Made by a program: the position numbers and the translations under genes
Notes under the pieces: generated by a model
What the model was told of the DNA's origin: nothing
What the model saw: the letters and a program-made list of their open reading frames with translations, nothing else
The model's database searches: none
Assembly: GCA_033030425.1 (NCBI GenBank)
Contig: JAUFSD010000011.1
Coordinates: forward strand, 1-64,000
DNA: 64,000 bases
DNA from: Verpa conica
Taxonomy: Eukaryota > Ascomycota > Pezizomycetes > Pezizales > Morchellaceae
Direction of reading: 5' to 3'
Shown here: in pieces, positions 1 through 25,899 of the stretch
Layout: the number at the start of each line of letters is the position of its first letter
Numbering within the stretch: the stretch's first letter is position 1

Positions 1-148
1 CACGCGCGAACCACAAAAAACACACGGTTGCTCGGGTTAACGGGTACGGCCACGCGTTTTAGGAAGTACACGCTTGAGAGTCTGGCACTGCGCTGCGTCT
101 GCGCCAAAGGAGCAAAGTCCCGGCAAAAGGTGCGCCGAGAAAATAGAC

Positions 149-1340
149 CGAGTGACAGCCCGTGACGCAAGCCAGAGAGGTACCAAGAGGCGCCCAACAG
201 GTCACAGAGCACATGGTTACTGTTAGAGGGCGACCTTACGAAGAACACCTACACAAAACCACTGAAAAAGAGGCTGAGAGAAAAACCGAGTGATTTTTAA
301 TGATTTTGAAGACCTAGCCCAGCGAGGCGCACCGAGTGACAGACTGTGATACAAGTGAAAGAAGTGCTGAAGCAGGCAAAAGAAGACCCTCAGACGCGTC
401 TAGTGAGTCACAAAACAGAGGAGAGAACAAGTTCCCTGCTCGAACACTAAAGAAAAGTCGTGACAGAAGCCGAGTGATTTATGATGATCCCCGTGCGACC
501 TCCCCAAGAAAAAGAGCAACCGGAGCGCAGCTGGGAAAGGCGAGAGAAATTTCCAGCAAAAACGCGACGAGAAAATAATCGAGTGACACTTGATGACGCA
601 TAGAGCTTCTAAAAACTAACCGAGTGAGTAACAGTGACGCAGGGGAGTTAGGTCCAAGACACAACGATCACAAAGAGCAACGGGCAGGGGGGCGGGGGGA
701 GAAGACGTGTGACAGGGTGTGATGCTAAAGAGAGGTGAAGGGACAGACCGCGGTGGAGCGAGAAAGGGATCAAGTTAGCTCTTGTGATACGGAAACGCAA
801 GTTACCTGGGCCACTAAAAGAAGTCCTGCACAGTTAGGTCTAGAGTCTGTTAGCGCTTAGTTTAAAAAAGTACTACACAGCACAACGTCAAGAAATACGC
901 GCTACAACAATCGAGTGATACACCGTGATTCCAGACGTCACCCGCAAGGCATCAAGCATAGAACGAGCACTACAGCGATAGAAAGAAGGTAGCCGTACAG
1001 GATTAAAGCTGGGGCAGGTCTCAGAGGCTACAGGCTACAAGTGTGAGTGAAAGCCGTAGAGTAGTAGCTGGCGTTAATCACAAGGTCAAGGTAAAACTAG
1101 ACTAGCGGGAGGTCACTTGACGGCAAAACTATTATGTCCAAGTGATTTTAGATGACACAGAGCAGGAAGCAATAAAATGCTCATTTGAGGGAGAGTGGGT
1201 GGGCCTGTGACACAAGCTCCACAACGACTAGAAGACCTTTCAAAAGGTCACATGAGGCCGCAGGGAGCCAAAGACACTACAAAGTATTATCCAGTTACGA
1301 AAATAACTCAGGTCAACGATCGAGTCACTTCTCATGATTT
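149..1340. repeat. Array of degenerate CGAGTGA-N5/6-TGAY motifs
   Basis: About ten copies of a motif of the form CGAGTGAY, 5-6 free bases, then TGAY occur here, beginning near 149, 287, 333, 471, 580, 621, 703, 912, 1139 and 1321. The best copies elsewhere (19825, 20185, 20525) end in TGACTCG, so the motif is an interrupted palindrome with CGAGT and ACTCG arms. Spacing is irregular, 40 to 230 bp. No convincing gene lies under the array; open frames here are short and low in complexity. I interpret it as a protein-binding array or decayed end of an element that extends beyond the window start. Confidence 0.6.
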
Positions 1341-1429
1341 TCCGTACACTAAATTAACAATGGTAGGTTTAAAAGAAGTTAGAAAACTACCCGAAGCATA
1401 CAGGATGTGTTAGTTTCTGCTTTTCGGCG

Positions 1430-2385: not shown

Positions 2386-3215
2386 GTCGTACAGGACTTA
2401 TCCTATCGCTACGCGAGGTGGCATAATGTGCTGTACGGTAAAACTAACTTCTCGCTTATGGAGCCGCGCAGCCACCGTACGGCGCACCTACTAGGCTTTA
2501 GAGTATTCCCATCAACACGCTGTACAGCATCGAAGGTAAGATTTAGTTAGCTAAGATACCAGCTGTACAACACGAAGACCTTACTACCTATTTTAGCCTA
2601 GCCAGCTGTACGACGGAATACGGCAGATCCGACTACCCCTCTTTCCTCTGTACACGAAGCTTTCTTACTTTATCTCCTCTCCTCATAGCGATGTACGGGT
2701 TATTTACTCATTCACTCACTAATAAACCTCCGTCGTACGTCTTAAGGTGATAAAGTCGACCATTGCTGCTGCCACTGTACAGTGGGAAGCTTCTTTCCCA
2801 AATGTTGGAAATACTCCTTTACAGTCTACTATACCATAGTTACGACTTTACCGTTATCGCTGTACCGTGGGCTTGCTAGTATCGTGCTTCCCAGTATTTG
2901 CGCTGTACAGCGCAAGGACGGTACTACTCCTAACTCGAGTCAGCCGCTGGGCCGCGGCTTAGTTTCCTCTTCCATTACCTCCATTCTCGCCGTACAACAT
3001 CAGGACACCTTGACATTAGCCTTCATCTGACCGCTGTACAGCAGCCAAACATATATTCCACTCGCTGATAATCCTGCCGTACAATGCGATAAAGTCGCAA
3101 CCTTGACTTCTTTCTCGCCGCTGTACGGCAAGGTGGTTCTCACTCCATCTCGCTTATCCCTCGACTGTACAGCAGAACTTGCTCAAGCCAACACACCACC
3201 GAAAGTCACCATACA
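2386..3215. repeat. Left CTGTACAG palindrome array of the 2.4-16 kb element
   Basis: Some 18-19 GTAC-centred palindromes are spaced about 30-60 bp apart. Five are perfect CTGTACAG octamers (2520, 2775, 2903, 3034, 3165); the others differ by one or two bases, commonly CTGTACGG, CTGTACAA or CCGTACAA, always keeping the GTAC core. Flanking bases sometimes extend the palindrome, as at 2901 where the sequence is GCGCTGTACAGCGC. The same octamer forms a second array at 13718-15960, and the two coding genes lie between. Arrays of this kind resemble subterminal repeats bound by transposases, or iterons and parS-like clusters. The binding partner is unknown; the ParB-like protein encoded at 3763-7426 is an obvious candidate by inference. 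Confidence 0.8.
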
Positions 3216-3762
3216 GCTTTAAAAGGCTCATCCGCGGTTCAAGACCAAGAGTAAGGGACAGTAAGTGGATTTTTACTAGTACTGATATAGCTACAGTCTT
3301 ACTCATACAATAATTTGTTGGTCCAAAGGGCCCACATCGAGGAGGCAGACGTATCGACCTAGCTATACGATTCTAATTACTACCCCCTTGAATATTTTAC
3401 AGCTAAAGGATACAAAAAGAAGTCCCCCCACTTCCTAGTAATGGGTTGTTGGATCATGTCTATAATTTTGGTTCGGGATTCTCATGCTATAGACCTAGTT
3501 ATAAACTACAACATACATCATGATACATTATGGTGTGGTAGCTAGGAAAACGATTTAGTGTAAAACAAAAATAACTTCTCACGGCCTGTTACAATAGCCC
3601 CTGAAAATCTCTAAATACCTCTAAAATCACACTCTTATCGATATAAGAAAACAACCTCCGACAAACCTACTGAAAAGACAACAAATTATACAACCCGGGG
3701 AAGATATATTTAATTCTAACTCAATTGAAATATTCATTACAAGGTAAGAGGACGACAACACC
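3216..3762. other. Spacer between left palindrome array and ParB-like gene
   Basis: AT-rich sequence downstream of the stop codon of the minus-strand ParB-like gene. It probably holds that gene's 3' untranslated region. I see no motif array or open frame of note. Confidence 0.4.
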
Positions 3763-6700
3763 CTAAGTAGTGAAAATATCACTATCGTCACTATCATCCA
3801 TTACTCCTGCCGACACAGCAGACTTGATTGCCTCAGTAGACCCCGGGTTTGGCTTTTCATACAAGGTAGACTTTGGTGTAATAACGCCCTTCGGTATCCT
3901 CCTTTTCTTTGCTTCGCTGGCTAGTGGGGAGGCATCTTTACGCTTGCCGCCGCGAGCTGTGACCTTAGTGGATGGCTTGTTCACTGCCTTGTTCGACTTG
4001 CGGGAGCGGATCTTCGGGCCGGGGCGAACCGGGGGTACCGGATCGACATCTTGCTCAACTAGCTGCTCAATGTCTCCAGAAATTCCATCGGGGGAAGTGA
4101 CAGTGCCTTTTGCGGACCCGGAGGCAACTCGACGGGATCTTGGTTTAGGCAGGGTTGGACTGGGTTGAATTGGGGGTACCGGTTCCACATCATCTTGCTC
4201 AACTAGCTGCTCAATGTCTTCAGAAATTCTATCGGGGGAAGTGACAGTGCCTTTTGCGGACCCGGAGGGAACTCGACGAGAGCTTGGTTTGCGCAGGGTC
4301 GGTCCAGGGCCTGATCTCACTTTCGCTCTTGGCTTCTTTTTGGAGGCCGGTCTTGAGATAGGAATCATAATATCCAGTAAATTGGCATCTGCAGGTGGGT
4401 TCACCAGCATTACAGACTCCGGGGACGGGGGTGCTGGATTCTTCTTAGTCACGGGCAATGGTGAGACAGGTAGCTGTAATTCTGGGTTATTCGGCTTCTC
4501 GTCGTGGGGAAAGTTTGGAGGGAGAGGAAGAACTATGAGATCTTGATGTAGCCTTGTCGAGTATGTCGAATCTTCGGACCCTGAAAAAAGGTGTTAGAGA
4601 GGGATTTAGGTACACCAGAACAATAAAAGAGTGCTCATACAGCAATTTCCACGCTCATCTTCTGCTTCATAGCCAGGATGACTCGCCAACGCAACATCAA
4701 GCTCACCTTCAATCGGCTCAATCACACCACAAGGGCTTTGTGCAACCGGGATATCAACGGTGAGCTCCCTAGAGTTCTTGGGTCCAACATCACTGGTATC
4801 TTCCCCGTCACTTCCCTCCTCTTCCAGAAGCTCTGATTCTGAATCTGAATCGTTATCTCTAACAACCTCCCTCTCGCCGTAGTCTGACGGGTTCTCTGGA
4901 TCATTGCTCCCGATACCCAGACCGTCGTCGTCGTCATCAACAGCTATAAGGATGTCAGTGGAAGGTAGCGTAATAGAGTATAAGATAGAAACCTTCAGAT
5001 AATTCTGAATCTTCGCTATCATCTCCAGAGTTATCGTGCCCACCCACTAAAACCGTTGCTACATTGCTATCACTACTATTTTTAGTACTGTGAGCGATTC
5101 AGATGGACTTGAGGAACAGCGTACCTCCGCGCGAAAATATCCCCCGCTTCATCAATCGCATCCAATATGTTGCTCTCTTCCTCTTGTGCCATAAGCACGG
5201 CAGCATTTGCTTCGTCGATCGGAGGTGGGGGCCAAGGACCACCCCGGACCTCAAAGATAGGTTCCGCGTTCTTAAAGGGCTTCAGGAATGCCCAAATAAG
5301 ATCTCGCTTAACAAACCAGGAAGTTGACGTTAGTTCAGCGTCTTCTGCTATATTTATAGCTTGTGCAACCTTCCCGGGTTCGCGTATTTCGGTAGCGTAA
5401 AAGACGTGGTTCCAGTCGATCTTCATATGACAATCTTGGAACTCCGGTAGCCAAACATTGCCGACACCACCAAATCGCGCTAACGGGACATCAGTTCGAG
5501 GGCACACTTCCGAGAACATTGCCATTTCTTCTGCTGTACGGGCCGGAAGGCTGGTTTGTATGTCGTTGACCATTTGAAGGACCGTATTCATAGGCATCTC
5601 GGGGCGACATGACAATAATGCTTGCTCAATCTTTCGTTTATCAAAGGCACGAGCCATCGCAGCAGGTGTACTCGCTGGCCCAGATACCATACCAGAAAAG
5701 CTTGGACCAATACCGAGTGATTCCGCATGTTGCGGATAGAATCCTAACGCACGACAAACCTTATACAACTTTCTCCATTCCGGGATAGAAAATCGCTTGT
5801 TATACAAGGCAATGTCCTCTGGCGTCATGTCGACACTGATTGCCACGTTGCGAGATGCCCAGGATTCAATTTCGAGACCTGGAACGTCCTTTCGGACATA
5901 AATTTTATACAATGCAAAGAAGTTTCTCATGATAAACAGCCACACCTGATAATACGCGGTGACTCGGTAGGTGCGGTCTTGCAAACGGGGCCCCCGTAGA
6001 GGTTCCAGCTTGTTTAGAACTAACTTAAACTGCGGATACTTCTCCTCATCCGGGTAAACCGCCTTCGGGTTAAAAGCGATATTATAAAAGATTTGCCTGT
6101 AGCTTGCTTTGGAGGAGGCAAAATCGGGGGAGAACCAAAACGCGATGTCGGTCATGATTCGACTGAACACTTCGACTAACTTGATATCTTCCCAGAAGGT
6201 ATTAAGAGAGATTATTCGGTAGTCCATGCGGAGGAGTCGTTCAAGAATCATATTACGGCTTACAGCATAGGTAATTTTATAGAAAAGTCGGAGTGACATT
6301 TGCTCCACGACAAATTCGGCATCCTCCACAAACCTACCTGGTGATTTCCCGTCTAACGCCTTAACTGTGAGATCATCGATCTGTTCCCAGAAACCGACAA
6401 TCCCATCACCGATAGACTCCCAAATCTGACATACTCTAGTAATATATTGCACGAGCTCTTCATGACACCTCAGAGGCATCATGCGGCTTAGCCTTCCACC
6501 ACTGAATCCTGACCATACTCCACGGTTCTTCAATGCTCGAGTAAAGACTGGGCATAATTTCTCGGAGTTCAGAAGCTGCTTAATCTTGCCTTTAGAACCC
6601 ATATTGTTCAATAGAGCATTTGTTGATGCGTTGTCGTTACGTTCTTTGAAGAGGAGCAGGTTGGCCCAAATTTCCGCTAATGTGGGGACAAGCTGTAGCT

Positions 6701-7426
6701 CAGAGGCATTCGAGCGAAGCTTCTCCTTTGCTTGTGCAGATATTGCTATAAGAAACCAATGAATTAGCAACTAGAGCGATAAAGTAGACCGGCCAAACAT
6801 ACTTTCGTCATAGAGCTTAACAACCCACCAGCGGTCTCGTTCCTCGGAAAACAGCTCTCGCAGAGCGTGAATGCGATGCTGGCCGGATTGAGCTTCCACA
6901 GTTATTCCGGCAGGCATAATAAGGTATGGATAACGAGAGGTAGCATCACCAGGATCAGGCTCTTTCGATTCGTCTTCATTAGTCGGTTTTGTGATGAGTG
7001 GGTCAATTCCGACGTTTTTCATTGTCGCTTGTCGAGCATCCTCAAAACCGCCCGACTCACTATGCAGGAAATGTGGTGTTCATTCAGGCATCTTTTAAGA
7101 CCGGTTTCAGCGAAGGCATCTAAAATCTTTTTTACGTGGTCCTGCGATACACGCCGCTGATCGCTCGTATCCGCACCTTTCCATTGAAAGTCGAACGCTG
7201 ATGCAGACATTCTGAAAATGCCAATTAGGTGTAGATCAATTTCATCTTGAATTGAGTTTGCTTCTTTCTCTTTATTCTTCGCAATGCTCGCCATATCTTC
7301 TTTATCAAAGACTTTCGCTTTTTGTCTGCGCGGTTTATTCTTCTTCGCCTCCTTTTCCTCAACCTGCTGAACAGTCCCGGCGGACTTCGGCTTCGCCGTC
7401 GGCTGGCGAGGTTTTGAGCTGGCCAT
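3763..7426 (-). CDS. ParB-like (GQHR) domain protein with charged C-terminal tails, putative element gene 2
   Basis: Multi-exon gene read right to left. The ATG at 7426 opens a lysine-rich leader (residues ~1-50), followed by a region with RRVSQDHVKKILDAF and, after the next junction, VEAQSGQHRIHAL and WWVVKLYD, which resembles the ParB/sulfiredoxin-fold core (GQHR in place of GHRR). A canonical intron at 6746-6802 leads to ~540 residues (6745-5125) that I do not recognise. Downstream exons (5087-4993, 4943-4641, 4580-3763) keep phase and encode an Asp/Glu/Ser-rich stretch, then a basic tail holding two near-identical ~45-residue repeats (SSRRVPSGSAKGTVTSPD type). Uncertain points: the frame changes near 7023, explained either by an intron using GTGAGT at about 7056 or by a frameshift; and the 5088-5124 intron would be only 37 nt. 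ParB proteins bind palindromic DNA, which fits the flanking arrays; nuclease or partition activity is not shown. Confidence 0.72.
6746..6802 (-). other. Intron in the ParB-like gene
   Basis: 57-nt intron with GTATGT donor, GCTAATT branch-like motif and TTATAG acceptor. It joins LYDE to TISAQAKEKL in frame and removes the apparent stop at 6771, showing that the ParB-like domain and the 540-residue region belong to one protein. Confidence 0.85.
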
Positions 7427-8050
7427 TAATGTAGGTATCTCGGCGGTAACAAAGAGAGGAGAAGGATTACTTGACAAAGTTGTATATCTCAAAGGAGAAC
7501 GGGATGGGGGTGATGATCATATCAAGGTACCGATAAATGCAGGTAGATGGGTGTAGGTGTGGGTGTGGGGTGTCTTGTTACGGAATGGGAGGCTCAAAGT
7601 GATTTGTCATCCTACAAAACACACCACGAGATATGTATATCCGTGAAAGTTTTCACCAAAATATCTCTCGTACTCTCCTCAATTAATACAGCTATGATAA
7701 AAGTTTAAGGCTGTTAGCACTAAAAAAAATATATATACCGATTTCTGAAGCTATATAGTATAGAGGCTCAACTAGTTAAGCATAAGAAGGCTTTAGACTA
7801 ACTGGAGAGGATTTTAAGCCAAATTATAACTGCTTATTATTGCTATATCAGATTTCTTCGGTCGTATTTTAATATCCGGAATGGATATTATAGACAAGTT
7901 GAAGTTTTACCACAAAATAGCATGCGTTAAGTGAAGGAAATATTTATTCAATTGCACTCAGGACATGATTAAAAATAAAGCTGTAGGCTCCCCCCTCTCT
8001 CCCTCCGCCGGGGCCATACCCAACTAGTCACTCCTGGCCTTAATATCTAT
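7427..8050. promoter_or_regulatory. Intergenic region upstream of the ParB-like gene
   Basis: Gap of about 620 bp between the 3' end of element gene 1 (8051) and the ATG of element gene 2 (7426), both on the minus strand. It probably carries the terminator of the first and the promoter of the second. A GGGTGTGGGTGT-like run lies near 7545-7570. No CTGTACAG site is seen inside it, in contrast to both flanks. Confidence 0.4.
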
Positions 8051-11000
8051 CTATTCCTCACCACTTGATACTCCATCGGCCATGGTGGCAATTATCTTGT
8101 TTACCATGAAATCTGGAAGCCAAAGGCTTAAGACACGCTTTGCGCTAATTTTAGCAGCTTCTCCGGCCTTCTCTAGAATTCCGCGGTGAAACTCCTCCGA
8201 GTAAATACTGAGTTCATCAGTGCGTGGATATTGGCGAACGCCCTTTGTCCGATAACAAATCTTAACACATTCCAAGAGCCGGCAGCTAATCTTTTTATGT
8301 TCTAATAGTAAAGCGCATTAGTATGATAGACAATTGGTTATATTTGTGGAAGGGGAGGGGTTAACCTGTAAGTTCAATGACATGTTTTGCGGCTGCGATA
8401 CCTGGAGCTTCCCGTGTGGTCTCCCTCGGATTAGAATACATAAGGCATCTTACTACAAAAATAAAAAGCCATTCATTCCTCGGCGTATTTATCTTCTTTC
8501 CATACTCGAACTCCACAACATTTGGATTATAGCGGTCGAACCCCAGAGCGACAGGGGGGGTTGCTTGGGATAATGTATACCCGATGAGAAGAAACAGGTT
8601 ATGCTGTGGGTTATTGAGCTGTAGGGTTGCTGCGGCGCGGCGAAAAAATGCAGCAACTGTACTTCCGGGGCCAGCGACATTGTGGGATCGAGCTCTCAAA
8701 TATTTCGTTATTACTGCATCCATACCGGAAATATACGCTGGAGGAAGCTCTTCGAGTGGAACCTTGAGTGGGAAAGCCGGGGTTGCTTTAGCACGTCTGG
8801 CCGCTACTCTTGATATAGTGAGATTGAAGTCCTCCGAAGTTTCATAAAGGCCCTCAGTAGGTCTTGCCAATCTTAATTGTTCCTGATGATTTGCCTGCCA
8901 GAGTCCAGTAAAGTCACGAATTTTTGTGAACCGCCGCCCACTCAGTAATCCGTTCCAGGGCCCTGGAATTATATCCACACCTTCGATCCTCAGGGCTGTT
9001 GCTAAAGACTGTTGCCAATCTTTAGCTGTGAGCATCTCTCCGATACTAACGGTATCAAAGATTGCCGATAACCAAAACATACCGCCCTTACAAAAGCCTT
9101 TTGAAGAAACGGTGTTTTGGGGTTTCCTCCAGCTTCCAACTCTTCCGAGAGATGGGGCATTTTTATGAGGGTTCCAGCTTAAAATTAATGCCGCAAGCTC
9201 AGCGGGCTGAATTACATCAATATGAGCGGACGGAAAGGGAGTTAATTTGTCTAACAGTGTCTCCCATGGTTTCTCTAAACTAACTTGATGAAAGCTTTTG
9301 ATCATGGATAACATAGTCCTATAAATATTCATAAAATTAGCGAATTGATCATCATATTTGACATTATTTGGCTGAGCTTACATCTTGCTAAACGGGTACT
9401 TTACTAAAGCGTACGCTATGAGTAGTCTTTCGCGGCGGTCACTATCCTTTTGAGCGACCAGGGAAGTAACCTCTTCACAATCGTTTAAAGCTGCGGCAGC
9501 CGAGACCGAAGCCATTCTAGTGTGCTGTTCACGAAAATGAGACGTTACAAGGGCCTGTAGTTCGGGTATCATGAAGCGGCGGATTATGTCTCTTAAGGCG
9601 ATAGTCGCTAACTCAATTGTGATTATCTCTTTATCAGTAAACATGCTCATTGAGGTCTCCCTTGATATTGCAGCAGCTTCTCCAAAGTGAAACTTTATAC
9701 TCTTGAGGTGAGTAAGGACGAGGTTGCCAGTGCTAACGTCGATCAGCCATGGGGAACGAGACTTAACAGTAGGTAACTGTATTAAATCAATTCGAGATGG
9801 CATGATGTATGGCCATCCGTACCGCTCGATACTTGTGAACAAGCCAATCCATTTCCATAACCTTGACGGGATATGCGCCGTATTTCCGGTAAACATGAAC
9901 GCTGAAAGGCGTTCAAGAGTTGCAGTTGCCTCTGATACTACTAATCCATCTTGTCGATTGTTACTCTTGCAATTCTTAACAATCCCGCTAAGACATGTCT
10001 CAAATAGATAGCTGAAATCTGTTAATACCCCAGGAAACACCTTTGAACCAATTAGTGACAGTCTTAACGCAGAAACGGATACGAGGGTAATCACCTCCGG
10101 AGTATACAAATTAAACCATTTCATATACAGTGGCCGGGCAATCTTTGTCCATGTCATTGTAGGCAACATGATATTTTTACAGACATAGGTGAAGTTCCGG
10201 TTTTCTGGTAGTAAGAGTTCGAAGTTAACTGATAAAACCGGTTCAAATCTAGAACCGATTCGTCCAGTCTCTACCGCCTGGGCGACTGCGTCATTGAACT
10301 GCTCAAATGGCTTACCGTCTTCAGCAATCTTCCATAAACTAGTTAACTTGTCTTTAAACTTCTTTCCATCCATAGAAGGCGCACATACTGCCGCTGTGTA
10401 AGAGCCGTGCGACAGCAGATGTCTCCCAGGCCGGTGGCGGCAATACTGCTTAAGAACGCTGTAACCTTGGAATAAAACAACAGTGACGACTTCGTTATCC
10501 GGCTCGAGATTATTCTGATCCACTAGACTTTGATTTAATCTGTCTATTATTGCTGTCTTGTAAGATTCTGGAGGCTTGCTTGCTTGGAAAGAACATACGG
10601 CGGGGCTAAACCCCATCGGGAATACTCGTAGGTTTGCCCCTCTCACATTTTCGTACTCAGAGAGAATTTCTGATGTGTTAAATAATGAAGACAAGACTTG
10701 CGCGCTTGGAGGTTCATCGAAGGCTTCTTCTGGACCGTGATCGACGTGTGGTGCTGAGATTTTCACGTTTGTAGCTAAAGCGAACATCATTCTTGAAACG
10801 CAGTGAGCATCGTATGTTCCCGATAACGTGTTGGCCAGTGTTCCATCCAAAATCTGTTTTGGGCGCACTGTGACGTCTTGGCCGATCTGGTAGGCGTGAA
10901 AGGAGATGTCTTGGTTTAGCCAGTACCCTTCTGGGCACGCATTCAAAAGCACGGCCAATAGGCAAGGATTGAAGAGAATAAAATACGCCAATCCTTTCCG

Positions 11001-12484
11001 TCCATATCGGCCTGTTCTCTTCCGCCTAGAGTCCACTCCGATGAAACTCCGTGCCTACTCAGTCGGGGAACTGTCATCATTATTCTGATGATCAAAGTAG
11101 AGAGTTGTGTTGCATGCAGCTTCGACATGGAAGAGTATTTCATTGCCTGTCTCATAGTTCTTGTTTGAAGATCAATTTCCAATGTTTCGTGATCCGGCTT
11201 TGGAACCATTACGACATACACCTCACTGCCGGCGACATCTGCAATCTTCATACACCGCTTGTAATATGAATGGCTAGCGGTGTACGCTCGGTAGCTTGCA
11301 TACGGCTTACTCCATTCATTGAAGCTTAGTTTTCCATTGGTTAGGTTTCCACGTCCTAGCCCTGCAAAATTACCATTCGCAATAGAGTCCACGCATGTAA
11401 AATCAAGCGTGTGTTCTGATCTAATCTCATTTTTGGGACCGCCAGGTGTTTTATCTGAGGCAAAATCGATCGATGAAGCAGCCCAGTCGAAAGAAGCTCT
11501 GGTGTTGATCAGTTTGGCAGCTTTCTCAAACGCATATGCAGGAGTTGCCGAACGCATGTCGTCAATTTGTTTATGAAATGAACCGGGGGTGTGGTAAAAT
11601 ACACTCTCTGTATCGACCTCCACTCTTCCATTGTTAAGGATTTCCGAGTCCGGGTCTTGCGAGAGAAATTCAGGTGGCGGGTCCTGCTCGTTTTCTGGCA
11701 TTTCCTCATCTTCGCCTGACCCTTGCACGATTGTTACTTGCTGAGGTCCACCAGGAAGTTCAGGGGAGGCGCGTATTCTACTAGCTATCAAGTCAACTAG
11801 TCCATCAAGTTCATCATCAAGCACAGATACAGCTACATCGTCAAGCACAGATACAGCTACATCGTCAGGCACAGATACAGCTACATCGTCAGGCACAGAT
11901 ACAGCTACATCGTCAAGCACAGATACAGCTACATCATCCAACGACTCCGGACGCCCGTATCGATCCCGTGGAATAGTGCGGCGACGATGAGACCTCCGAC
12001 CAATCTCATCCGATGACTCTGAAGAGTCATATGGATTCCCTTGAATAGCACAGGGCCGAGACCCCCGACGAACCCCCGAGTTTTCAAGAAGCTCACTTCC
12101 AGTCGTATCTTCTGTTCTTTGTTCGGCTAAGGCCTTCCGAGATCCCCGTAGTCGTAGTAGTGTTTGGCGTTGAGATTGGCCCTGGTCCAGAAACTCATCA
12201 TCAGATCTCGCATCATTGAACTCACCAACAGAATCCTCTCCTTCCCCTGAGTCATTGTCCCCCTCTTCTCCTGAGTCATTATCTTCTACTTCCGAATCTG
12301 ATGATATAATGATAACTTCCATTCCTTTTTTGTCTTTGAAGGTTCTGAGCGGCGGGCTGTGGGGTCTGTGTTGGATGATACTTTCGCTAGATGTAGGGCT
12401 CACTGGCTCGGTCTTTATCTCGGCATTTTCAGATCTTTTTTTCAAGAAACGGGCCTTCCAAGTCGGCATGGGCGGGTCCGACAT
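8051..12484 (-). CDS. Large unassigned protein with acidic N-terminus, putative element gene 1
   Basis: Minus-strand gene of about 1.4 kaa. The ATG at 12484 (MSDPPMPTWK) opens a disordered Ser/Asp/Glu-rich N-terminus of ~280 residues that includes five tandem DDVAVSV(L/P) octapeptides (11819-11938). The following ~1.1 kaa are folded-looking but match no family I know. Two introns are well supported: 9319-9381 (GTAAGC..TATAG) joining YPFSKM to TMLSMIKSF, and 8302-8365 (GTTAAC..ATTAG) joining HVIELT to EHKKISCRLLEC; both keep frame. The junction near 11.05-11.10 kb is unresolved: the reading frame changes and the new frame contains an in-frame TAG just upstream of 11054, so there is either an unrecognised intron or a disabling mutation. 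It is co-oriented with, and upstream of, the ParB-like gene, and both sit between the two CTGTACAG arrays, so a role in mobilising or maintaining the element is inferred. I see no DDE, tyrosine-recombinase or HUH signature. Confidence 0.68.
11819..11938 (-). repeat. Coding minisatellite, 24 bp x 5
   Basis: Five near-identical 24-bp units in frame inside element gene 1 encode DDVAVSV plus Leu or Pro. Units differ at only one or two bases, implying recent expansion by slippage or unequal exchange in a disordered acidic region. Confidence 0.9.
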
Positions 12485-13717
12485 GATTCCTTGTTTTATT
12501 AGATAAATATTAATGACCACAAGGGAGCAGGGGTGTAAGCCTTACAGGAATTGAAATATTTTCTCACTCGTACGTAGCGGATAATTAAGTCACTGGAGTA
12601 AGGATTTTTCTTGATGAAAAACTCATGGGTGGCGATGGTGATGTATGAAAGAAAATTCTCTTCGAAAGCCCCCCAAGGCACAGTTCATAGAATTAACATC
12701 TCCTCGCGCTGTCTCCCAAACTGTGAACTTAGACTACGCGTCGTTGAAAGATACCCTAAAAGAATTAGCTAGAATGAACATCGGCAGTCATTTGAGATAC
12801 GGAGACAGCATAGCAATTTAGGCGAAGACCTGCGTCAAGATTCTTTACCGCTTCTTTGGCAATACAATCTCCATTGGCAGTATTACTGCCAGTGGCAATA
12901 TAACATAGCCATAGTACACTCGCGCAGCAACTCATTTGCGACCCACCCAAATAACCACTATAAAATTATATAACGGCAGATATACACTCAATAGATTTAA
13001 TATGTATGTAGAGGACATTAAACTACTACATAGGGCTTTCAGTATTTTACTGTCATTTTTCAGTAACTTCTATTATGTTATTGCGTGACTACGCGTATTC
13101 ATTATTACTGGCCTATGATATTGAAGCGGAGCCGAGAAACAGAGAGAAATAAAGCCATTTATAAATCTAAGATCATCTTCCCCTCTTCTTCAAAATTATA
13201 TGTAGTACAAAGGTTGATTGTGTGTAATTCCCATTATATTTGTACGCTGTCGTTATCCTTAATTCAAAATAGTTGAATCTATAACGAATACTACAATCAT
13301 ATATTCTATAAACTAGCTAGGAAAGTAAGAAACAGAAGTAAAAACACCGAGAAACAAATGAGAATTGAAGGTGTTTGCGTAGGGAGAAACCCCCGTTATA
13401 CTGAATCATTTAAGAAGTAGAAGAGGGCAAATACTTTAGTGAAATAACGAGTGATTGTTGGTGACCAAGAAATCTATTTATGGGGTGACGCTAAAGAAAG
13501 CAAAAACAGTTTATCGCAATTTGTGGTTAACTTATATCCCAGCACGTTATACCATAACCTATCGGATAGTTCACAAGTTACTCCTTCATGATGTACCTTG
13601 TCTTAGAGCTTTTAGAAAACCACGAGTGATACGTAAGCCTTCTGGACTGCAAAAACCTAGCTTATGATGGTCTCGCTAAAAGTGATGCTCAGAATCATGA
13701 AAATACGTGGTAAAGTG
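12485..13717. promoter_or_regulatory. Upstream region of element gene 1
   Basis: About 1.2 kb between the ATG of element gene 1 and the right palindrome array, likely containing its promoter. Two CGAGTGAT motifs (13448, with TGACC following, and 13622) match the motif arrayed at 149-1340. A 61-codon minus-strand frame at 12765-12950 with a hydrophobic start is not accepted as a gene. Confidence 0.4.
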
Positions 13718-15960
13718 CTGTACAGTATCGCGGAGACCAAGGAAGAAAGATCTTTTACATGCTGTACAGGGCGAAGGTGATCGGAAAAGAAAATCATAGT
13801 TACTACTGTACAGCGAGGGACGCTCGCTTAGAAGTGAGACTTTTTAGTGCTGTACAGGGCTTCAACAATTTTAAGGGACGGCGATAATTATGGCTGTACA
13901 GCGAGAAACGTTAGGCTTGTAAGGGGTATGTGGGTGTAGTACAGGGACATATGAGCATGAGTAGAGCTGGCGGTTTTCACTGTACAGCGTGGGATAATAT
14001 TTAGCGTAAGAGCACGCAAGTGCTGTACTGCTAATGGCTGAAAGGAATTATGACTAAGGATAGCCGCCGTACAGGCATTGAGTAGGGGGCTCATTGAATC
14101 TGTAAAATGTCGTACAGTCCTGTATCAGGATATGACCAGCACGGTAATAGGTACTGTACAGCCAGTATTCAAAGCTTATTTATTTTATGATAGCGCTGTA
14201 TAGGTGGAGTCGGGGTTAATTGTATTTGCTCTGGGAAACCGTATAGCAAGGTGCTGGGAGTGAGATACTTAGATGAGGAGTGCCGTACAGGGCTACCTGA
14301 GAGTGTTGTACACATAACGGAGTGCTGTACGGTTAATCCTTCAAAACTCAGGTGCTATTATAATTGCTGTACACCATTAGCTAGAAGGATAGGTATTAAG
14401 TGCTAGCGTTGTACAGTCGCTAGAGTAGGGCGGTCTATTTAAGAAAGACTGCTGTAGCAGACGAATATATAAATAGGATACGACTTGTGATTAACTATAT
14501 AGGGATATCCTATTAATATATGAATAGTAGAGAAAAGTATAATATAGCTATATGGCAAAGGGGTAGGAATGAAAAAGAGCGTACAGGGCCATTGTTTGAA
14601 CATAAGAAATGATGGATACTACTGTAATACTATATAATGTAAGCGATATTTAGTTTTGTGCTGCCTTTACAGCACAGTCTTGGAGTTTCAAAAATGTAAA
14701 GCCCTACTGTAATATAGCAGCGGGAACCATGAAAAACGTTAGGATCTAGCTGTACAGTGGACAATATTAATCTATTATCAATATAAATTTACCTGTAGAG
14801 TATAGTCTAGCTTCAAAAGAATTAATCAAATTCTCTATATAGCATAATAAATATAAATAGTTCAGCGTTGAATATGTAATACAGGCAGAAATATATTTAG
14901 GTTCTTTGCGCAGCCTAGCCATACAGTACAGTAGCTATAGAAGAGCCTGAGCAAAGGAAGCTGGACATCAACTTAAATGACGGTTTTAAATATATGATTC
15001 CGCTGTCCAGCAATAAGTATGAACTACTATAATAGTAAATATGGCTGTACAGCAAGTGTGCTAAACGATAATTATGTAACTACCGGCGTACAGGCTAAAT
15101 AAAGCCCAAGAAATAATAGTAAGCACTGTTCAGGCGTAGAATCACTGAGATAGGGCTTGAATAGCTATTTTATAAACTCAGTATAGGTTGGACGAGATAA
15201 AAAGATACTGTACAGTCAAATGAAAGCGCTGGATAAAGAACTATAAAGTGACATCTAAGCCGACCAAGTGCTAAAATATCTAACAGATCAATAAATTGAT
15301 ATAAAGTTTCACTGGGTAATATTTTTAAATCTTTTATTACTATTTGAAGAGGAATAAAATGTACTTTGGACAAATTGAAGGACAAAACTAATTCTCTTAG
15401 AACTAATATTAGGCTCTAAGCTAAATCTCGGAAAGTTTGATAACTAGATATACAGTGCACGATTGATTTGAAATAACTTACCAGAGTTGACATACAGGAG
15501 GTTTACATTTTATAGAAGAATGGAAGAACAGCTATACAGGAAATAGTGACATAACCATATTTTCCGTTAGAGCCTGAATAGAGATGAGTACTTTTTTAGA
15601 AGAAATGTAGAATAGCTATACATTACATTATACTATTTTAAAATATTCCGATTTTGACTGAACAGTAAGTTTAGAAAATACCACTATGTACAAAGCGGCT
15701 GTACTATCAAACTGTAAAAAAGAATTCATTGATACATATACTGTACAGTCGATTTAACAAATAAAATAAAAGTAGTAAGTTATTATACAGTACCATTTCA
15801 TCGCTAGCAATTGATAGAGTTTTGCCTGTACAGCAGGCTTATCACTGTAAGTAGTAACTAGCGGATAGCTGTACAGCTTATTGTTACAGAGATGCTAATT
15901 TTAAACAGTACTGTACAGCAATTATTTCACAAAGTAGTGTTTGAAAAAAGCCCTGTACAG
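13718..15960. repeat. Right CTGTACAG palindrome array of the 2.4-16 kb element
   Basis: Fifteen perfect CTGTACAG octamers are seen (13718, 13762, 13806, 13850, 13894, 13980, 14154, 14750, 15045, 15208, 15741, 15826, 15869, 15911, 15953), with roughly twenty one-mismatch versions such as CCGTACAG, TTGTACAG, CTATACAG and CTGTACGG between them. A given octamer would be expected about 0.03 times in 2.2 kb of random sequence. Spacing is mostly 40-60 bp at the outer and inner ends and looser around 14.4-15.7 kb, where sites have decayed. The background is more AT-rich than in the left array. No gene is evident inside. Confidence 0.87.
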
Positions 15961-16059
15961 GATAAATCTAATGAAAATTTTGAAAAACTATCAGTAAAAC
16001 CCTAAAATGGCTCTAAAATATATGAATTTTAGACTTTTTAACCACTAATAGGGACTTTT

Positions 16060-19000
16060 TACCCCTAACCTGGAGGTCACACCACAAAAAAGCTATTAAA
16101 TAGGAATGATGGGGTTTTGTTATTTCGGATAAATAGATTGAGGGGCAGTGCTGGATTGGCTGCTGAGAATCGGTTAAAGAGACGGAAGAAAAAAGACTAT
16201 GGGAAATTATTTCGGGATTCTTGGGACTTGTTGCAGGATGTGTGCAATTGGAAGGAAGGGTCAGAGGAATATGATGTGGACATGTTGGATATGTTACTGG
16301 TGGGGAAGATGCAATCGATATCGGAGGAGGTTTTGGGAGTTGTCAAGCCAACAGTGGAACGGAGGGGTCCGGATAAGGTGGTCGGCAAGCTTTCAACATC
16401 GACGGATGTTGACTCGGCTATTGGACTGTTCAAAAGAGTCCAGAGATCCTCCACCATTGGGAAAACTATGCTATCTGAAATGGACAACAGTACACCCATG
16501 GAAGAGTGCGAGTCCAAGTATGAGAAAGTCTACAATAGCTCTACTCCCTCTTTCACATCCACGACTGATATAAACAGTGCCTCTGGGTCTGATTCCAGCA
16601 TTCCATGTGGTGAACCTCTGATGGATGATGCAGAGATTACCAGCATACTTCTAGGTATGGTGTCTGAGAAGCGGGTCAAAAAGTTCATTTCTAGGTTTCC
16701 AGGAAGCAAATCCTGTGGCGAGGATGGTATTCACGCGCTGCAGATGAAAGCCTTACTGGATACCTCTTTCATCACCGATCTCTCACTTCTATTCCAAGCC
16801 TGCATACTTACAGGCTCCACACCTGAACGGTGGAATAGGTCTATTCTCTATCCTATCCGAAAAGACTCCAGTCTCCCGTACACAGCTGCCAACACAAGAC
16901 CTATCTCCATACTGGTAATGTTCAGAAGGGTTTTTGAGAGTCTGATAATACCGGCCTTTGAGGATCCCTCCCTTCCCTTCAACACGATTGATGCTGGACA
17001 GGGTGGCTTCCGGAAAGGCTACTCCACTCTCACACATGCCTTGACTCTCCACCATTCCCTGGCAACCAAAGCTCTTCCAATAGCTGTGTTTCTTGATCTT
17101 GAGGCAGCATACGATATGGTTGGTAAGGATAAACTGGTGGAGGAATTGCGTGCTCAAGGGATGCCAGCTTTGCTGGTGCGGCTGGTGGTCCACCATGTTC
17201 ACTTCCATGTCTTACAGCCTGATTGTCAATGGTGCCTCTTCAGGTTCCCATAGACGGGTTGTTGGTATTCCACAAGGCTCTCCTCTATCTCCTGTCATGT
17301 TCAACAAGTTTGTCAACTCCCTTGTGGTGGCGCTCAATGCTACGGTACAGGATGCCAGTGGACTTCCTTCTAGCCTCTTCTTTGCAGATGATGGGGTTCT
17401 TATGTGTCGGGATTGGGTGAAAGCCACGGTGCTGCTTAACATATGTGAGCGGTGGGCTGTCGACCATGGCATGCGCTTCAAGGTGCCAAAATGTGGTGTT
17501 GTCACTACCAAGACGATGCACAACAGGTGGCATACTCCTCTCTCTCTCTATGGAAGTCCTTTGCCAGGTTGTTGATACCTACCGCTACTCTCGGCTTCCC
17601 TGTCACCTGTGATGGTATAGACTTTGACGCCCATCGGGACAGGATTGTTGAGAAGACCCTTAAGCTCAAAGGTTTCTCCCCAGGTGCTCAGAGCTCTTGG
17701 ACTCCTCAGAGTCGGGGCTCAATCTCTTCAAGAGTCTACCTACGACCGATCATGGAGTATGGGCTGCCTCTCTTCGATGCTTGGGTCAAAGCTGGTGCCT
17801 GTTTCAAGTTCCTCAAGCCCTTGGAGCTGGCGTGGAATGAATGCATGGTGTGGGTGGCTGGTGGTACACTCCAAGCGTCCCAAGCTTATAGGCAACCTCT
17901 GTGAGTCCCGAGATCAGGCCTCGTATGGAACATCTACGCTGTAGCTTTCAACACCACCTCTATACTATGGATGCTGGCAACCCGCTTAGGAATATTGTTG
18001 GCTCCCTCCCTGCTAGAAGGTCCAAGAAATTGCTGGTTGGCCACTTGGCTTATGATAAGCTGTATGGGAGGTTCAGGGAGGAGACGGTGGGGCTTGTTGG
18101 TCTCGACGCTGGTAAAGTGAAGGAAAAGCTGGTAGGATTTTTGGCGGTAGAGAAGAGTTTAGTGGTGGGGAAGAGAGATGATAAGACGGGTACTATGGTG
18201 GCTATAGTGGAGCCGGAGGGTAGGCTGGAGCGCTTGATAGTTGCCGTTCGGGTATGTTTAATATCTTATTTACTTTTTATTTTTTTATTTTTATTTTATT
18301 TTTTTATTTTTTAATACTGGTTTTGAGACATTTTTTAATTTTTTATTTATTTTTTATTTTTGCTGTTTGACTGGGAGTGGAGATGGGGGCTGACCGTAGA
18401 GGTGCTTTTTGGTTTAGCGTTTTGAACAGTAAGCAGCAAACTACTTTGTGGGATTGGAGGCGAGGACTCTACGGGTTTGGAAGAGTTTGTCTGTGTGGGG
18501 TTCGGTGGGATAGGGGACATGTTCGTTGTATGGCTATGAGTGGTATCTTGACTGGGGTTTTGACGGAGGAAGAAAAGGAGCTGATGGAACTCGACAAGGT
18601 GTTACACCCGCCTGACACCAAATACACCGTGATTGATTATCTTCTCAATATCCGGGCTCATGATAGGGCGTATGATATATTGGCTGAGTGGAGTAAGAGG
18701 ATGGCTGATATGTTTGTTGCTGGTCGTGTGGCTGCTGCTAATAACGGGAGTGATTGATCTTTTTATTCGATTAGTGCTTGTGTCGTCTTTGTGTTTTTTT
18801 GTTACTATGGATGCTTCTATTTATTTTCTCTATTTCTTTTATTTCTTTATTTCTTTTATTTTGCTGGTCTCTTATAAGTTTTGTTCTCTTTTACTTTGAC
18901 GACACTAGTATTGATGGGGTGGTGTGGAGGACTGGGGCCGCATGGTGCTTGGTGCTGGGTATTCTGTGCTTGGTACCTTGCCCTTAGTGGAGGGGAGGAC

Positions 19001-19216
19001 TGGTGACTTGGTGGTGGTAGCTTGAGTTGGTAGCGTATCGCTAAGCTTGCCCCTCTTTGTGGATTGCAGCTGGCCGTACTACTCTCCTGTCTTACTGCTT
19101 CTCTTATTACTTGTCTCTTCTCTCTGCGCAATCGCAAGGGTGATACTTAGTTTATACTTTGTACTTATCCTATTAGCTGGAGTTAATAAAATTCTTAATC
19201 ACTAACCCTAACTAAC
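16060..19216 (+). mobile_element. Degenerate non-LTR (LINE) retrotransposon, 5'-truncated
   Basis: Pieces of one reverse transcriptase protein are spread over several plus-strand frames: an upstream region from about 16080, RT motifs TRPISILVMFRRVF (~16890-16930), AVFLDLEAAYDMV (~17080-17120), GIPQGSPLSPVMFN (~17265-17300) and the catalytic FADD (~17380), then maturation-domain and C-terminal pieces to 18757. Frame changes near 17.2, 17.57 and 17.9 kb, and an interrupting T-rich run at 18262-18358, show it is dead. A stop codon lies just upstream of the first usable frame and the endonuclease domain is absent, so the copy is 5'-truncated, as is common for LINEs. It ends in AAATTCTTAATCACTAACC followed by a short CTAAC repeat, abutting the 520-bp repeat at 19217. 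A Tad- or similar fungal clade is possible; I cannot place it further. Confidence 0.85.
18262..18358. repeat. T-rich low-complexity run inside the LINE
   Basis: Nearly pure T with scattered A, about 100 bp, between two coding pieces of the LINE C-terminus. It may be an expanded slippage tract or the remnant of a tail from another insertion. Confidence 0.7.
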
Positions 19217-19742
19217 GGGCAACCTGCAGCAGCGCGCAGCCGAGAGGCAAGCGAGGAAGTACTCGACTATGTCCAGGTACATAGAGAGAGGGCTTGTGAC
19301 CGCCAAAACACTGTCTGATTTTCCCTCTCTAGAAATAAAGATACACAGGGGGCTACAAAAGTCGCCAAAACCTTGCTCCCAGCCGAAAACCACGATGGAT
19401 TGAGCAGGTCCCACAGCTGCGCAGAAGCAACGCCACAGCGACGTCTGCAGCAGCCGCCTAGGCAGGTGGGGAGTAGGGCTGCAGCGCTGGAGAGTCTATA
19501 TGGGGTGCTCCCGCCCGGGAGTGGGGAAAGCAGCAGCAGGACTCCCGGACGGGAGTAACCTAACAGTAAAAAGTATAAAAAGACTACTCGGGTGGGTCCT
19601 ATGCTCCCGAGCGGGAGCTACACTAAGTCACTCCCGGCCGGGAGTAAACCACTCTATGGCGGGAGTCAGAGGACTGCTTTAAGAGAAAAAGCGAGTTTCT
19701 AGCCATAGCCCTAAGGCTTGACACCCCTTTTCGCCCTATAAT
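19217..19742. repeat. Copy 1 of ~520-bp GC-rich repeat with ACTCCCG palindromes
   Basis: Starts GGGCAACCTGCAGCAGCGCG and ends CGCCCTATAAT; a second copy with the same ends lies at 20708-21215 in direct orientation. Within its last 250 bp it carries palindromes ACTCCCG-N2-CGGGAGT or CTCCCG-N2-CGGGAG near 19508, 19544, 19600 and 19630, plus a half site GGCGGGAGT near 19658. Copies differ by scattered substitutions and a small deletion, so this is an old duplication. No coding potential is accepted. Confidence 0.85.
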
Positions 19743-19754
19743 AGAATCAACTCC

Positions 19755-20640
19755 ACTGTCAGCAAGGCCCCACAAAGAAAAAAGACTACACTCCCTCACT
19801 CAAGACACGAAACCGCGACAAAAACCGAGTGATTTTCCATGACTCGCGCTGTCGCCCCCCCACCAAGCGCAGCAAGCAAGCCTAGGAGCAGCGCCACAGC
19901 GACTGCAGGCAGGCGGTGCTGGGGCAGACATGGGGTGCCTAGGGCAGGGACTTAGGGCGCAGGAGGGTAGGGGGTGGGGTACGGCGCAGCTTGTCAGCAG
20001 TCAGCGAAGTCACGAGTCGCGGCCGCGAAGTGGAGAGAGCCGAAGTCCAGGTGCTGAGACAGAAGTACCTGGACAAGTAAAAGTGCATATAAAGGACCTC
20101 AGGACATCTAGACCACTGTCAGTAAGGTCCAACTGTGAAAAAAGACTGCACTCCCCCACTCAAAAGAAGAAACTGCGACGAAAACCGAGTGATTTCTCAT
20201 GATTCGCGCAGTCGCCCCCCCACCAAGCGCGGCAAGCAAGCCTAGGAGCAGCGACTGCAGGCAGGTGGTACTAGGGCAGACGTGGGGTGCCTGGGGTGCC
20301 TGGGGTAGGGGGGTAGGGGTAGGGCGCAGGTTGCCAGCAGTCAGCGAAATCACGAGTCACGGCTGCAAAGTGGCAGCGGGAGAGGTCCAGGTGCCGAGAC
20401 AGAAGTACCTGGACAAGAGGGAGTGCATACAAGGGATCTCAGGACATCTAGACCATTGTCAGTCAGTCTCCAGAGTGAAAAAAGACTGCATCCCCCCACT
20501 CAAAAGTCGAAATCGTGACATGGACCGAGTGATATCTCGTGACTCGTGCGACCACGACTGCGCAAGCAAGCAGGCAGTCAATAGGCAAGCAAGCGACGCT
20601 ACAGAGATGTCAGAAATAGGCCCTAGGTAGTTAGGGGGTA
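19755..20640. repeat. Tandem ~350-bp repeat, two full and one partial unit
   Basis: Units begin with ACTGTCAG-like sequence at about 19755, 20115 and 20455. Each holds a block AAAAAAGACTRCA followed by the motif ACCGAGTGAT..ATGAYTCG (19825, 20185, 20525), and the first two continue with CCCCCCCACCAAGCGC and a G-rich tail. The motif is the same interrupted palindrome arrayed at 149-1340, linking the two regions. The units lie between the two 520-bp repeat copies. Confidence 0.8.
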
Positions 20641-20707
20641 GCAAGGCGCAGCGCAGGTCAATATGCAGCACTGCATTGCGCGACGTGGTCTGGAGCTCAG
20701 GGTGATC

Positions 20708-21215
20708 GGGCAACCTGCAGCAGCGCGCAGCCGAGAGGCAAGAGAGGAAGTACCCGACCATGTCCAAGTACATAGAGAGAGAGCTTATGACCGCCAAGGC
20801 ACTGTCTGATTGTCCCCCTCTAGAAATAAAGATACACAAGGGACTACAAAAATCGCCAAAATCTCGCTCCCAGCGGAAAACCACGGCTGCGCAGAAGCAA
20901 CGCCACAGCAGCGTCTGCAGCAGGCACCCAGGCAGGTGGGGGGTAGGGCTGCAGCGCAGGGGGGGTCTATATGGGGTACTCCCGCCCGGGAGTGGGCAAA
21001 GCAGCAGCAGAGGACTCCCGTCCGGGAGTAGCCTAACAGTAAAAAGTATAAAAAGACTACTCGGGTGGGTCCTATGCTCCCGACCGGGAGCCACACCGTG
21101 TTACTCCCGGCCGGGAGTCGACCACTCTATGGCGGGAGTCAGAGGACTGCTTTGGGCAAAAAAGCGAGTTTCTAGCCATAGCCCTAAGGCTTGACACCCC
21201 TTTTCGCCCTATAAT
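20708..21215. repeat. Copy 2 of ~520-bp GC-rich repeat with ACTCCCG palindromes
   Basis: Direct-repeat partner of 19217-19742. Palindromes ACTCCCG-N2-CGGGAGT recur near 20980, 21014, 21076 and 21102 with a half site near 21132, so site order and spacing match copy 1. Homology stops exactly after CGCCCTATAAT at 21215, where the open frame of the ankyrin gene begins, suggesting an element end. Confidence 0.85.
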
Positions 21216-22405
21216 CATTGAACGTAGTACTGAAGAAGAATGCTACCGGGTAAACTCGGAGGACGCAGGCGCTTATCTAGTATGGTTGCAAAAGGTTGCA
21301 ACTGTTAGTGACCAGGAATTCGACTCTTATGCAATATTTGCCAAGAATGAGCGCCAGGTTATTACGACATCACGCCGGAACCTTAGCAATTCTACAGATC
21401 CCGAGGAAGCCGGGGGTTTTGAGCTTTTGTCCTGTGTTGGAACAATAGTCAGCCTTTGCGGGTTCATTACGCAGTTCATCGGTTTGCGTGGGATGCACTG
21501 GTCTGTCACAGTAGCACAGCTCGGGGTAATTGTGAGCATGACTATATTGAGAGCATGGGTTCGTCGAGGACTTTCAAAGCGCCCTTATGTTCAACTACTC
21601 CCCCCTGGACATGAGATCGACTGGCTAGCAACAAGAATCACAGAAAGCGAGGATCAGCTCTGGAGAGAGTTTGACCACCCACCACCCTTTTGGCAACGTC
21701 TTCGAGATTGGATCTCTATGCGCTCGGTAATGCGTAAGCAAAAAAAAGATATGTACTTGTGGAGCCCAAAATGTCTTGGTTGGGGTATCATGACAGGGGA
21801 AGATATTCGCGAGTTTGAGCCCTTGATGAGCGAAAGATCCGGTAGAAGGATTGGGAGAGCACATGAAGTAATGCAAGTTCGAAAGGATCTCGGGTGGCTG
21901 ACGCAGTGGCCTGGTCCCGCTTTTGAAAACGCGATTTGCGTTGCTTCTGCAATAGAGGTTGTGATGAATACCCTCTTTGTATCAAGCGATAGCAACGTAC
22001 TATTTTGGTCCCTGAATGCTCCAATAAACGAAATAGTTGTGTTTAGGCTGAGTCGTATTCCTGGAGGGAAATGGACTACCGACATCGCTGAGATTGAAGC
22101 CACAATTTCTTTGTGGCTATATTCTGTACGCGAGAATGAGCAGAAGACCTACACAAAAGACAATAATTGTAATGATAACGATAGTGAGGATAAGAGTGCT
22201 TGGTTGCGTAGTGGCCTTGTATCAAAACAACAAAGCATACGGCTTATAGGAAAGAGTACAAGGGCTCTGTGTAGAGATATGAGATGGTGGATGGGTAGTG
22301 GGGTATCAAGGGTGTTACAAGTAGAACTTTTATCTCCGACTAGTAGTGCCATCGATAATGCAGATACTATAACGGTCGAAGGTCATCGTATTGTAGGGTT
22401 TACGG

Positions 22406-25400: not shown

Positions 25401-25899
25401 GGCATTGAACCTGGCTGCTATTAGCAGGAATGTTGTAGTGGTGAAGGCAATCCTCGACTTAGAACCCCTGGCGATGGACACAGGTCTTCACGAAGCAGTT
25501 CAACGGGGGGACCACGTGGCAGTGGCGACAATTTTAGATGCAGGTGCGCATCCAGACAAAGTGGATCGAACCGGGTCGACGGCAGTGCACTATGCTGCTT
25601 TTAGCGGATACGAAGCAGTTGTAGATGTATTTCTAGAACGAGGTGTGTCTATATCAGCAAAGAACCACCGCGGGAGGACACCACTACATCAGGCTTCTCG
25701 GGGTGGGCATTTGGTGGTAGTTAGAAAACTTTTGCAGGCAGGTATTGAGGTGTACATGAAAGACGAAAATGGGTGGACGGCACTACATGTAGGTGCTTAT
25801 GAGGGGCTCGTTTCAATTGTTTGCGCACTTCTGGAGGCCGGAGCAAAAATAGAGACGAAGAACGATTATGGGTCAACAGCTCTGCACTTAGCTTCTGAT

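Follow-up and report, generated by a model that had tools for sequence, protein, structure and literature searches.

The first 16.1 kb of contig C11 of Verpa conica contain two large genes, here called A and B, which lie between two arrays of a short palindrome, CTGTACAG, and form with them the element described below. The window is the whole stretch that was analysed, C11:1-64000 (64 kb), in an assembly of 45.8 Mb in 25 contigs, hence with 50 contig ends, which are presumed to be chromosome ends. The arrangement is real and unusual: the palindromes are set on a lattice of about 43 bp, the palindrome changes between gene pairs, the element has a sharp terminus, its copies show a polarity and the flanks of these copies change. 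The window element is plausibly one copy of a family of two-gene selfish elements that lack a reverse transcriptase (RT) and attach to chromosome ends, a reading that is preferred here at a confidence somewhat short of even. From the centromere to the telomere, the element consists of a proximal terminus, a palindrome array, gene A, gene B, a second array (in the window) and telomere-associated repeats. Both genes are on the minus strand, and their transcription runs toward the contig end. The initial annotation of two large genes in one orientation is correct, though they are split by introns and each has one frame change.

The window has 20 copies of the octamer CTGTACAG, 5 at 2520-3172 and 15 at 13718-15960, as had been annotated; 100 dinucleotide shuffles of the window averaged 1.00 and never exceeded 3. 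It had also been noted that no octamers lie between the arrays, and this holds for exact sites, which are absent both there and past 16 kb of the 64-kb window; two sites with one mismatch were found between the arrays, at 5534 and 7367, and an outlying one lies left of the left array, at 2219. The earlier count of over thirty near-matches could be upheld in part, in that the arrays contain 20 one-mismatch sites beside the 20 exact ones (40 of the 61 sites with at most one mismatch in the window), and a figure above thirty would need two mismatches. The array consensus is about RCTGTACAGY. Genome-wide, CTGTACAG occurs 536 times compared with 482 for a reversed-pattern control, and a second array of such size is therefore unlikely. 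The region 1340-3240 of the window, which includes the left array, has no match in the genome besides itself.

The distances between neighbouring sites are mostly 42-44 bp or near multiples thereof; there is drift, and some steps halfway along the right array are irregular. A period of 42.95 bp fitted both arrays best, with a power of 11.4 of 12 on the left (12 sites, the one at 2219 included) and 19.2 of 29 on the right (29 sites). A 42.95-bp grid captures 11 of 11 sites on the left and 24 of 29 on the right with a tolerance of 4 bp, where 21% would be expected by chance. For each of four arrays, two in the window and two on contig C13, none of 300 random placements matched the observed period power. 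About 43 bp corresponds to about four turns of DNA, and hence the palindromes lie on one face of the helix. The spacers contain at most 0.26 bit of information per position, save 0.52 and 0.47 bit directly flanking the octamer; being near base composition, they indicate a spaced set of operators and not a recent tandem repeat.

Gene A gave 7 matches at five loci of the genome, the window included, and DUF3723, the family of gene B, gave 12 matches at six loci. As a pair they were found only at C11 and C13, in the same order, and the C13 copies are 35-37% (gene A) and 35% (gene B) identical to those of the window. The stretch C13:1505001-1533696 is without any CTGTACAG; it contains 33 GTCGNNCGAC sites between 1506786 and 1511187. 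When one mismatch to TGTCGNNCGACA is allowed, C13:1506.6-1508k has 27 sites with a period of 42.95 bp (power 26.1 of 27), and C13:1509-1511.3k has 38 sites, with a power of 25.7 at 21.2 bp and of 18.6 at 41.9 bp, most single steps being 41-43 bp. The spacing has thus stayed constant and the palindrome has changed with the divergent gene pair, as a protein that binds cooperatively on one face would leave it. Between the C13 array and gene A lies a 402-amino acid (aa) coiled-coil open reading frame (ORF) with internal repeats (C13:1511352-1512557), which has two weak relatives in the genome.

The palindrome TGTCGNNCGACA occurs 162 times genome-wide compared with 31 for the control pattern. Among 50 of these 162 places, 44 fall in the first 9 kb of C1, C3, C5 or C6, 2 lie close to the right-hand end of C5 and 4 are inside contigs; at C1, C3, C5 and C6 the clusters have their peak period at 42.4-43.2 bp, less sharply so at C3 (8.4 of 11). 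Each of the five gene A loci found is no more than about 52 kb away from a contig end and is oriented toward it, as is a divergent DUF3723 copy at C10:27 kb; the remaining DUF3723 copies are 188 to 373 kb away from one. If the arrays served genes A and B as autoregulatory operators, unconnected with movement or chromosome ends, the position of an array upstream of gene A in both copies would fit, and so would the even spacing, which suits cooperative binding of a repressor. This explanation is nevertheless considered very unlikely, as arrays stand at contig ends where neither gene was found and the second array of the window lies past the 3' end of gene B.

The C13 element starts at ATTATACCC, position 1509046. 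A query composed of 206 bp of C13 flank and 85 bp of element gave 40 non-self matches, of which 20 start at 206-208, 19 are restricted to the flank side (the one on C8 reaches 208) and one starts at 218. Together with C13 there are 21 terminus copies; all fall in the outermost 39 kb of a contig, a zone that makes up 4.3% of the genome, and they are spread over 19 of the 50 ends. In 19 of the 21, the array points to the contig end (p 0.0002). The other 20 copies all lack the C13 flank. The window element ends at about 16100, within 16.1 kb of the contig end, where it abuts a truncated long interspersed nuclear element (LINE). A 52-bp copy of the window terminus was found at C17:4616-4668, with the same polarity and another flank; the region 12560-16200 of the window matches itself, seven LINE copies and this C17 terminus. 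The termini thus total 23 (the 21 C13-type copies, the window and C17). The proximal flank was examined at six of the 23, and it differs at six junctions (C13 twice, C1, C15, the window and C17). Another repeat, at C13:1508840-1509028, is present near many contig ends; several of its copies are 93-98% identical and most have one shared end position.

The element had been described as bracketed by palindrome arrays. Two equivalent ends were not supported, as no inverted terminal repeat was found, the recognisable terminus is on the proximal side only and the other side runs into telomere-associated repeats. When the inverted repeat of the 60-bp terminus was sought in the distal 3.3 kb of the window and 5.5 kb of C13, scores of 17-24 were obtained, compared with shuffled maxima of 25-28. 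As for a target-site duplication, the overlap at the proximal junction is 2-3 bp, and no second end was found. At C15, the terminus interrupts a relic of gene A and is followed by an array and telomere repeats; the remainder of gene A was not found distally. The C13 flank is uninterrupted at C8:11851-12058, and the next 60 bp of C8 have no match in the sequences compared, C13:1505001-1533696 included. The 5' part of the LINE was likewise not found distally in the window: past 1529763, C13 has a single match of 145 bp in the window, at 55134-55278, and none distal of the element, the 5' end of the LINE itself not being fixed. As the displaced sequence was not found distally at these three junctions (window, C15 and C13), the event looks like a replacement of distal sequence; later loss of the displaced sequence is possible, and C8 itself could be rearranged.

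These junctions bear on whether the element is a two-ended DNA transposon with subterminal repeats, similar to CACTA or KDZ, which prefers subtelomeres and whose distal end was lost or is unrecognised. Subterminal arrays of transposase-binding sites are typical of CACTA/KDZ-type elements and would fit the palindrome arrays, and the sharp A/T-rich edge (ATTATAC or TTTAATA) would also be in line with such an origin. However, no distal inverted repeat of the terminus was found in the window or C13, and no transposase domain was found in the gene A pieces with Pfam; the failure to find displaced sequence distally at the three junctions and the polarity of 19 in 21 also argue against it. An origin of this kind is considered quite unlikely. 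The claim of a self-contained mobile element stands insofar as the gene pair occurs twice with its own arrays, a sharp terminus and changing flanks; two equivalent ends were not supported.

On the distal side, the C13 counterpart of the repeat at 3-305 of the window runs into a telomere-like sequence, TTAGTTTAGGGTTAG, which resembles the telomere tract at the end of C15; genes A and B therefore read toward the presumed telomere. The tract at C15:1496738 is irregular, with TTAGGG mixed with TTTAG/TTAG units. The motif of the window repeat, TCACTCG, appears as CGAGTGA at 149, 287, 333, 471, 580, 621 and 912. Of its 15 occurrences in the window (149-912 and 19826-20526), 13 are directed toward the contig end, as are 17 of 18 in a C13 stretch (C13:1524896-1526405), where an array with 26-bp spacing (C13:1524959-1525088) lies beside gene B. 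The 3' end of the LINE faces the centromere and stands on telomere-like repeats, and more copies occur near other contig ends. It is probably a telomere-targeting retroelement like FoTeR or MoTeR; for FoTeR, 3' ends on telomere repeats are likewise described (PMC12857005). The overall picture suggests that chromosome ends in this fungus are stacked from end-attached modules.

The same features could reflect host subtelomere architecture, in which the palindromes are sites of a host chromatin or telomere protein, spread by ectopic recombination, and genes A and B are passengers. X/Y' and TelKO elements spread between chromosome ends in this way. The 21 copies lie at contig ends mostly in one polarity, which recombination alone would preserve; gene A or B was found beside arrays just at C13 and in the window, plus the C15 relic, and other repeats at those ends (TCACTCG and the C13 flank repeat) share the polarity. 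Recombination would, however, bring flanks along, whereas the junction is sharp, six junctions differ in their flank and the C13 flank recurs at none of the 20 other copies; the change of palindrome with the gene pair at constant spacing also speaks against host sites. This explanation is therefore regarded as unlikely, and attachment of a selfish element is preferred to it.

Several observations weigh against a family of end-attaching two-gene elements. Gene pairs number just two, and no second occurrence of the CTGTACAG array was found in the genome. The initial annotation had tied genes and arrays to each other, and this link holds in part: the C13 pair has its TGTCGNNCGACA lattice, but the 43-bp lattice is absent near the gene A relative at C12:1569 kb (C12:1557227-1581375) and near the DUF3723 relative at C10:27 kb (C10:1-50000), the stretches covered at C19 and C15 spanning 3-4 kb, and neither gene was found at many contig-end TGTCGNNCGACA arrays and at most terminus copies. 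The gene-less arrays and the gene relatives without lattice are interpreted as decayed and non-autonomous copies. Two terminus copies, C5:2032431 and C20:1382636, point the wrong way, and no array lies behind the C17 terminus copy in 1.8 kb. The window terminus (16100-16102) resembles the TGTCG-type terminus weakly, with scores of 27, 25, 25 and 20 against four copies, which were reached by 0.2, 0.15, 0.2 and 1.7% of placements. Telomere repeats were found at the contig end of C15 alone. To these may be added that no enzyme was recognised, as no transposase, RT or recombinase domain was detected in gene A with Pfam, that both window genes have a frame change where homologues (C13, C10 and P0003) are continuous, and that structure predictions gave a pLDDT of 31 for the central ORF of gene A (4 sequences) and of 32 for the main exon of gene B (2 sequences).

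A more specific proposal, held with less confidence and only tentatively, is that the element represents an entirely new class of RT-less eukaryotic mobile DNA which spreads by one-sided capture of chromosome ends, through a protein that coats the face-phased palindrome lattice. In the preferred reading of an end-attaching element, an element protein (A or B) would bind the palindromes cooperatively on a single face of the helix, and the nucleoprotein array would mark the element and hold its proximal terminus. The terminus would then be joined once, on one side, to a broken or eroded chromosome end, replacing the sequence beyond, and the distal side would supply or receive the telomere; array-only copies would be carried along. 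The joining may occur via an enzyme of the element, by break repair with a fixed DNA end or by recombination. Judged from the sequence, protein A or B is the candidate palindrome binder and the element would be mobile; binding would presumably drive the end-joining, and joining would be one-sided by design rather than through later loss. Under the more specific proposal, DUF3723 may give eukaryotes a counterpart of ParB-parS. Palindrome arrays are common to the two, and the GxHR box of DUF3723 resembles the ParB/sulfiredoxin box. The similarity of DUF3723 to ParB is at the level of the motif only and is not significant: hhalign against SopB of the F plasmid aligned the GxHR box alone (E 0.21), the ParB family was absent among the Pfam hits, and the PDB profile search made for the ParB test was empty.

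Gene A extends from about 12481 to 8051 and gene B from about 7516 to 5082 (Table 1). The absence of a transposase, recombinase or RT signature, as had been annotated, was borne out in gene A, whose pieces had no Pfam match over the cut-off and gave chance-level hits only (E 0.13 and 0.17); a PDB sequence search with the gene A profile was empty. A possible 63-bp intron (9319-9381) lies downstream of the central ORF. The relatives outside this genome, P0001 (DUF3723) and P0002-P0004 (gene A), are proteins known without genomic context, and a search for relatives of C13 gene A outside the genome found none. Gene B, annotated earlier as DNA-binding-like, turned out to belong to DUF3723, a family known from Starships; scans for DUF3723 in viral, bacterial and archaeal contigs gave no match, and in the PDB the gene B profile found a single hit, at chance level (6ukj, E 0.036). 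A basic ORF downstream of DUF3723 on C13 (piece L027:8815-9588) parallels the window ORFs at 3763..5046. No intron of 35-130 bp fits the frame change in gene A, and the sole candidate intron for that in gene B, of 137 bp, would delete sequence that the C10 and C13 copies conserve; the changes may represent decay or a base-calling or assembly error.

Table 1 Features of the window element and its surroundings (positions in the window)
Feature	Position	Strand	Remarks
Telomere-associated repeat, motif TCACTCG (CGAGTGA on +)	1..1340	-	Contig start; BLAST to C13:1505.5-1526.6k (3-305; weaker to 1339)
Distal (left) palindrome array	2431..3172	.	5 exact and 6 one-mismatch sites; RCTGTACAGY; 42.95-bp lattice
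Two ORFs, 276 and 146 aa	3763..5046	-	First basic, repeat-rich; putative 3' exons of gene B, as in C13
Gene B main exon (DUF3723)	5082..6770	-	PF12520 E 3.8e-35; 43% identical to P0001
Gene B exon, motif QSGQHRIHAL (GxHR box)	6771..7079	-	PF12520 E 7e-08
Gene B 5' ORF	7019..7516	-	One frame change near end; C10 and C13 copies continuous there
Gene A last exon	8051..8317	-	Follows possible 64-bp intron 8302-8365; ORF order as in C13
Gene A third ORF	8361..9377	-	30% identical to C13:1518529-1519305
Gene A central ORF	9378..11054	-	37% identical to C13; 51-53% to P0002-P0004
Gene A first ORF	10943..12481	-	One frame change near end; no Pfam match
Proximal (right) palindrome array	13718..15960	.	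15 exact and 14 one-mismatch sites; 42.95-bp lattice
Window proximal terminus	16049..16102	-	Telomere-ward TATTTAATAGCTTTTTTGTGGTGTGACCTCCAGGTTAGGGG; second copy at C17:4616-4670, different flank
LINE, probably telomere-targeting, cut at element terminus	16100..19216	+	95% identical to C13:1526573-1529763; RVT_1
Telomere-like repeat, LINE 3' end, CACTAACCCTAACTAAC	19200..19216	-	
Older telomere-associated repeat	19217..21240	-	

The presence of DUF3723 in gene B raises the question of a Starship fragment or a degenerate Starship, because this family is a Starship accessory gene; two reports call it characteristic of Starships (PMC10175614, PMC11623301). Eight matches to DUF3435, the tyrosine-recombinase captain of Starships, were found in the genome, all on C10 and C12; C11 and C13 have none. 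The proteins of the window and of C13 cover only positions 40-358 of the 508 of the DUF3723 profile and sit at contig ends, and palindrome lattices further distinguish the element from Starships. Membership was therefore rejected, in agreement with the initial annotation, and a Starship origin is considered extremely unlikely. DUF3435 captains do lie about 4 and 10 kb from DUF3723 at C10:188k and C12:1343k, and about 22 kb from it at C10:373k; C10:188-194 kb and C12:1332-1344 kb are probable Starships of this genome, two in number.

MoTeR and HeT-A are telomere-targeting non-long terminal repeat (non-LTR) elements. With telomeric non-LTR elements such as FoTeR, the window element shares the confinement to chromosome ends and a fixed polarity; it differs from them in its unrelated genes and its palindrome lattices, and no RT was found in the scanned pieces, the adjoining one being that of the separate LINE. 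The Terminons of bdelloid rotifers are described as large multi-gene retroelements attached to telomeres, with an RT and a ribozyme end; they often occur in head-to-tail arrays and truncated by telomere repeats, and coiled-coil ORFs occur in them (PMC6431247). Telomere attachment, the multi-gene build and coiled-coil ORFs are thus alike, whereas RT and ribozyme end set Terminons apart. The subtelomeric repeats X, Y' and TelKO resemble the element in being shared by many ends in one polarity; unlike them, the element has a sharp terminus on unrelated flanks and two specific genes. No helicase was found in genes A and B with Pfam, unlike in Y'; elsewhere, at C10:36828-39827, an ORF matches OrsD and, weakly, DEAD and is possibly a telomere-linked helicase.

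Other palindromes and repeats were observed near the relatives. A loose group of ACACGTGT sites without 43-bp spacing lies at C10:13898-14729, about 13 kb telomere-side of the DUF3723 gene at C10:27 kb, with 6 exact sites in 50 kb. A 45-bp spacing was seen at C10:6.0-8 kb, and CATGNNNCATG is repeated 16 times at C10:377477-379910, about 4 kb past a DUF3723 fragment. A palindrome cluster at C12:1558.5k was rejected as a lattice, as it consists of a coding repeat of 27 bp within a frame of 641 aa (C12:1557227-1559200), which lies about 8-10 kb before the C12 gene A relative and is perhaps the counterpart of the C13 coiled-coil ORF. Further into the window, 22546-26019 and 47504-50920 encode ankyrin-repeat proteins of 1157 and 1138 aa.

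In a partial literature search, covering titles and the openings of abstracts, the element was not found to be described, and the telomere-associated mobile elements described in the literature so examined are retroelements. A DNA-based telomere element, if true, would represent a new way for selfish DNA to persist on, and perhaps rebuild, chromosome ends. It would also give DUF3723, a Starship family, a testable role beside candidate binding sites, and the two protein pairs, with two palindromes and one lattice, would be suited to a swap of specificity.

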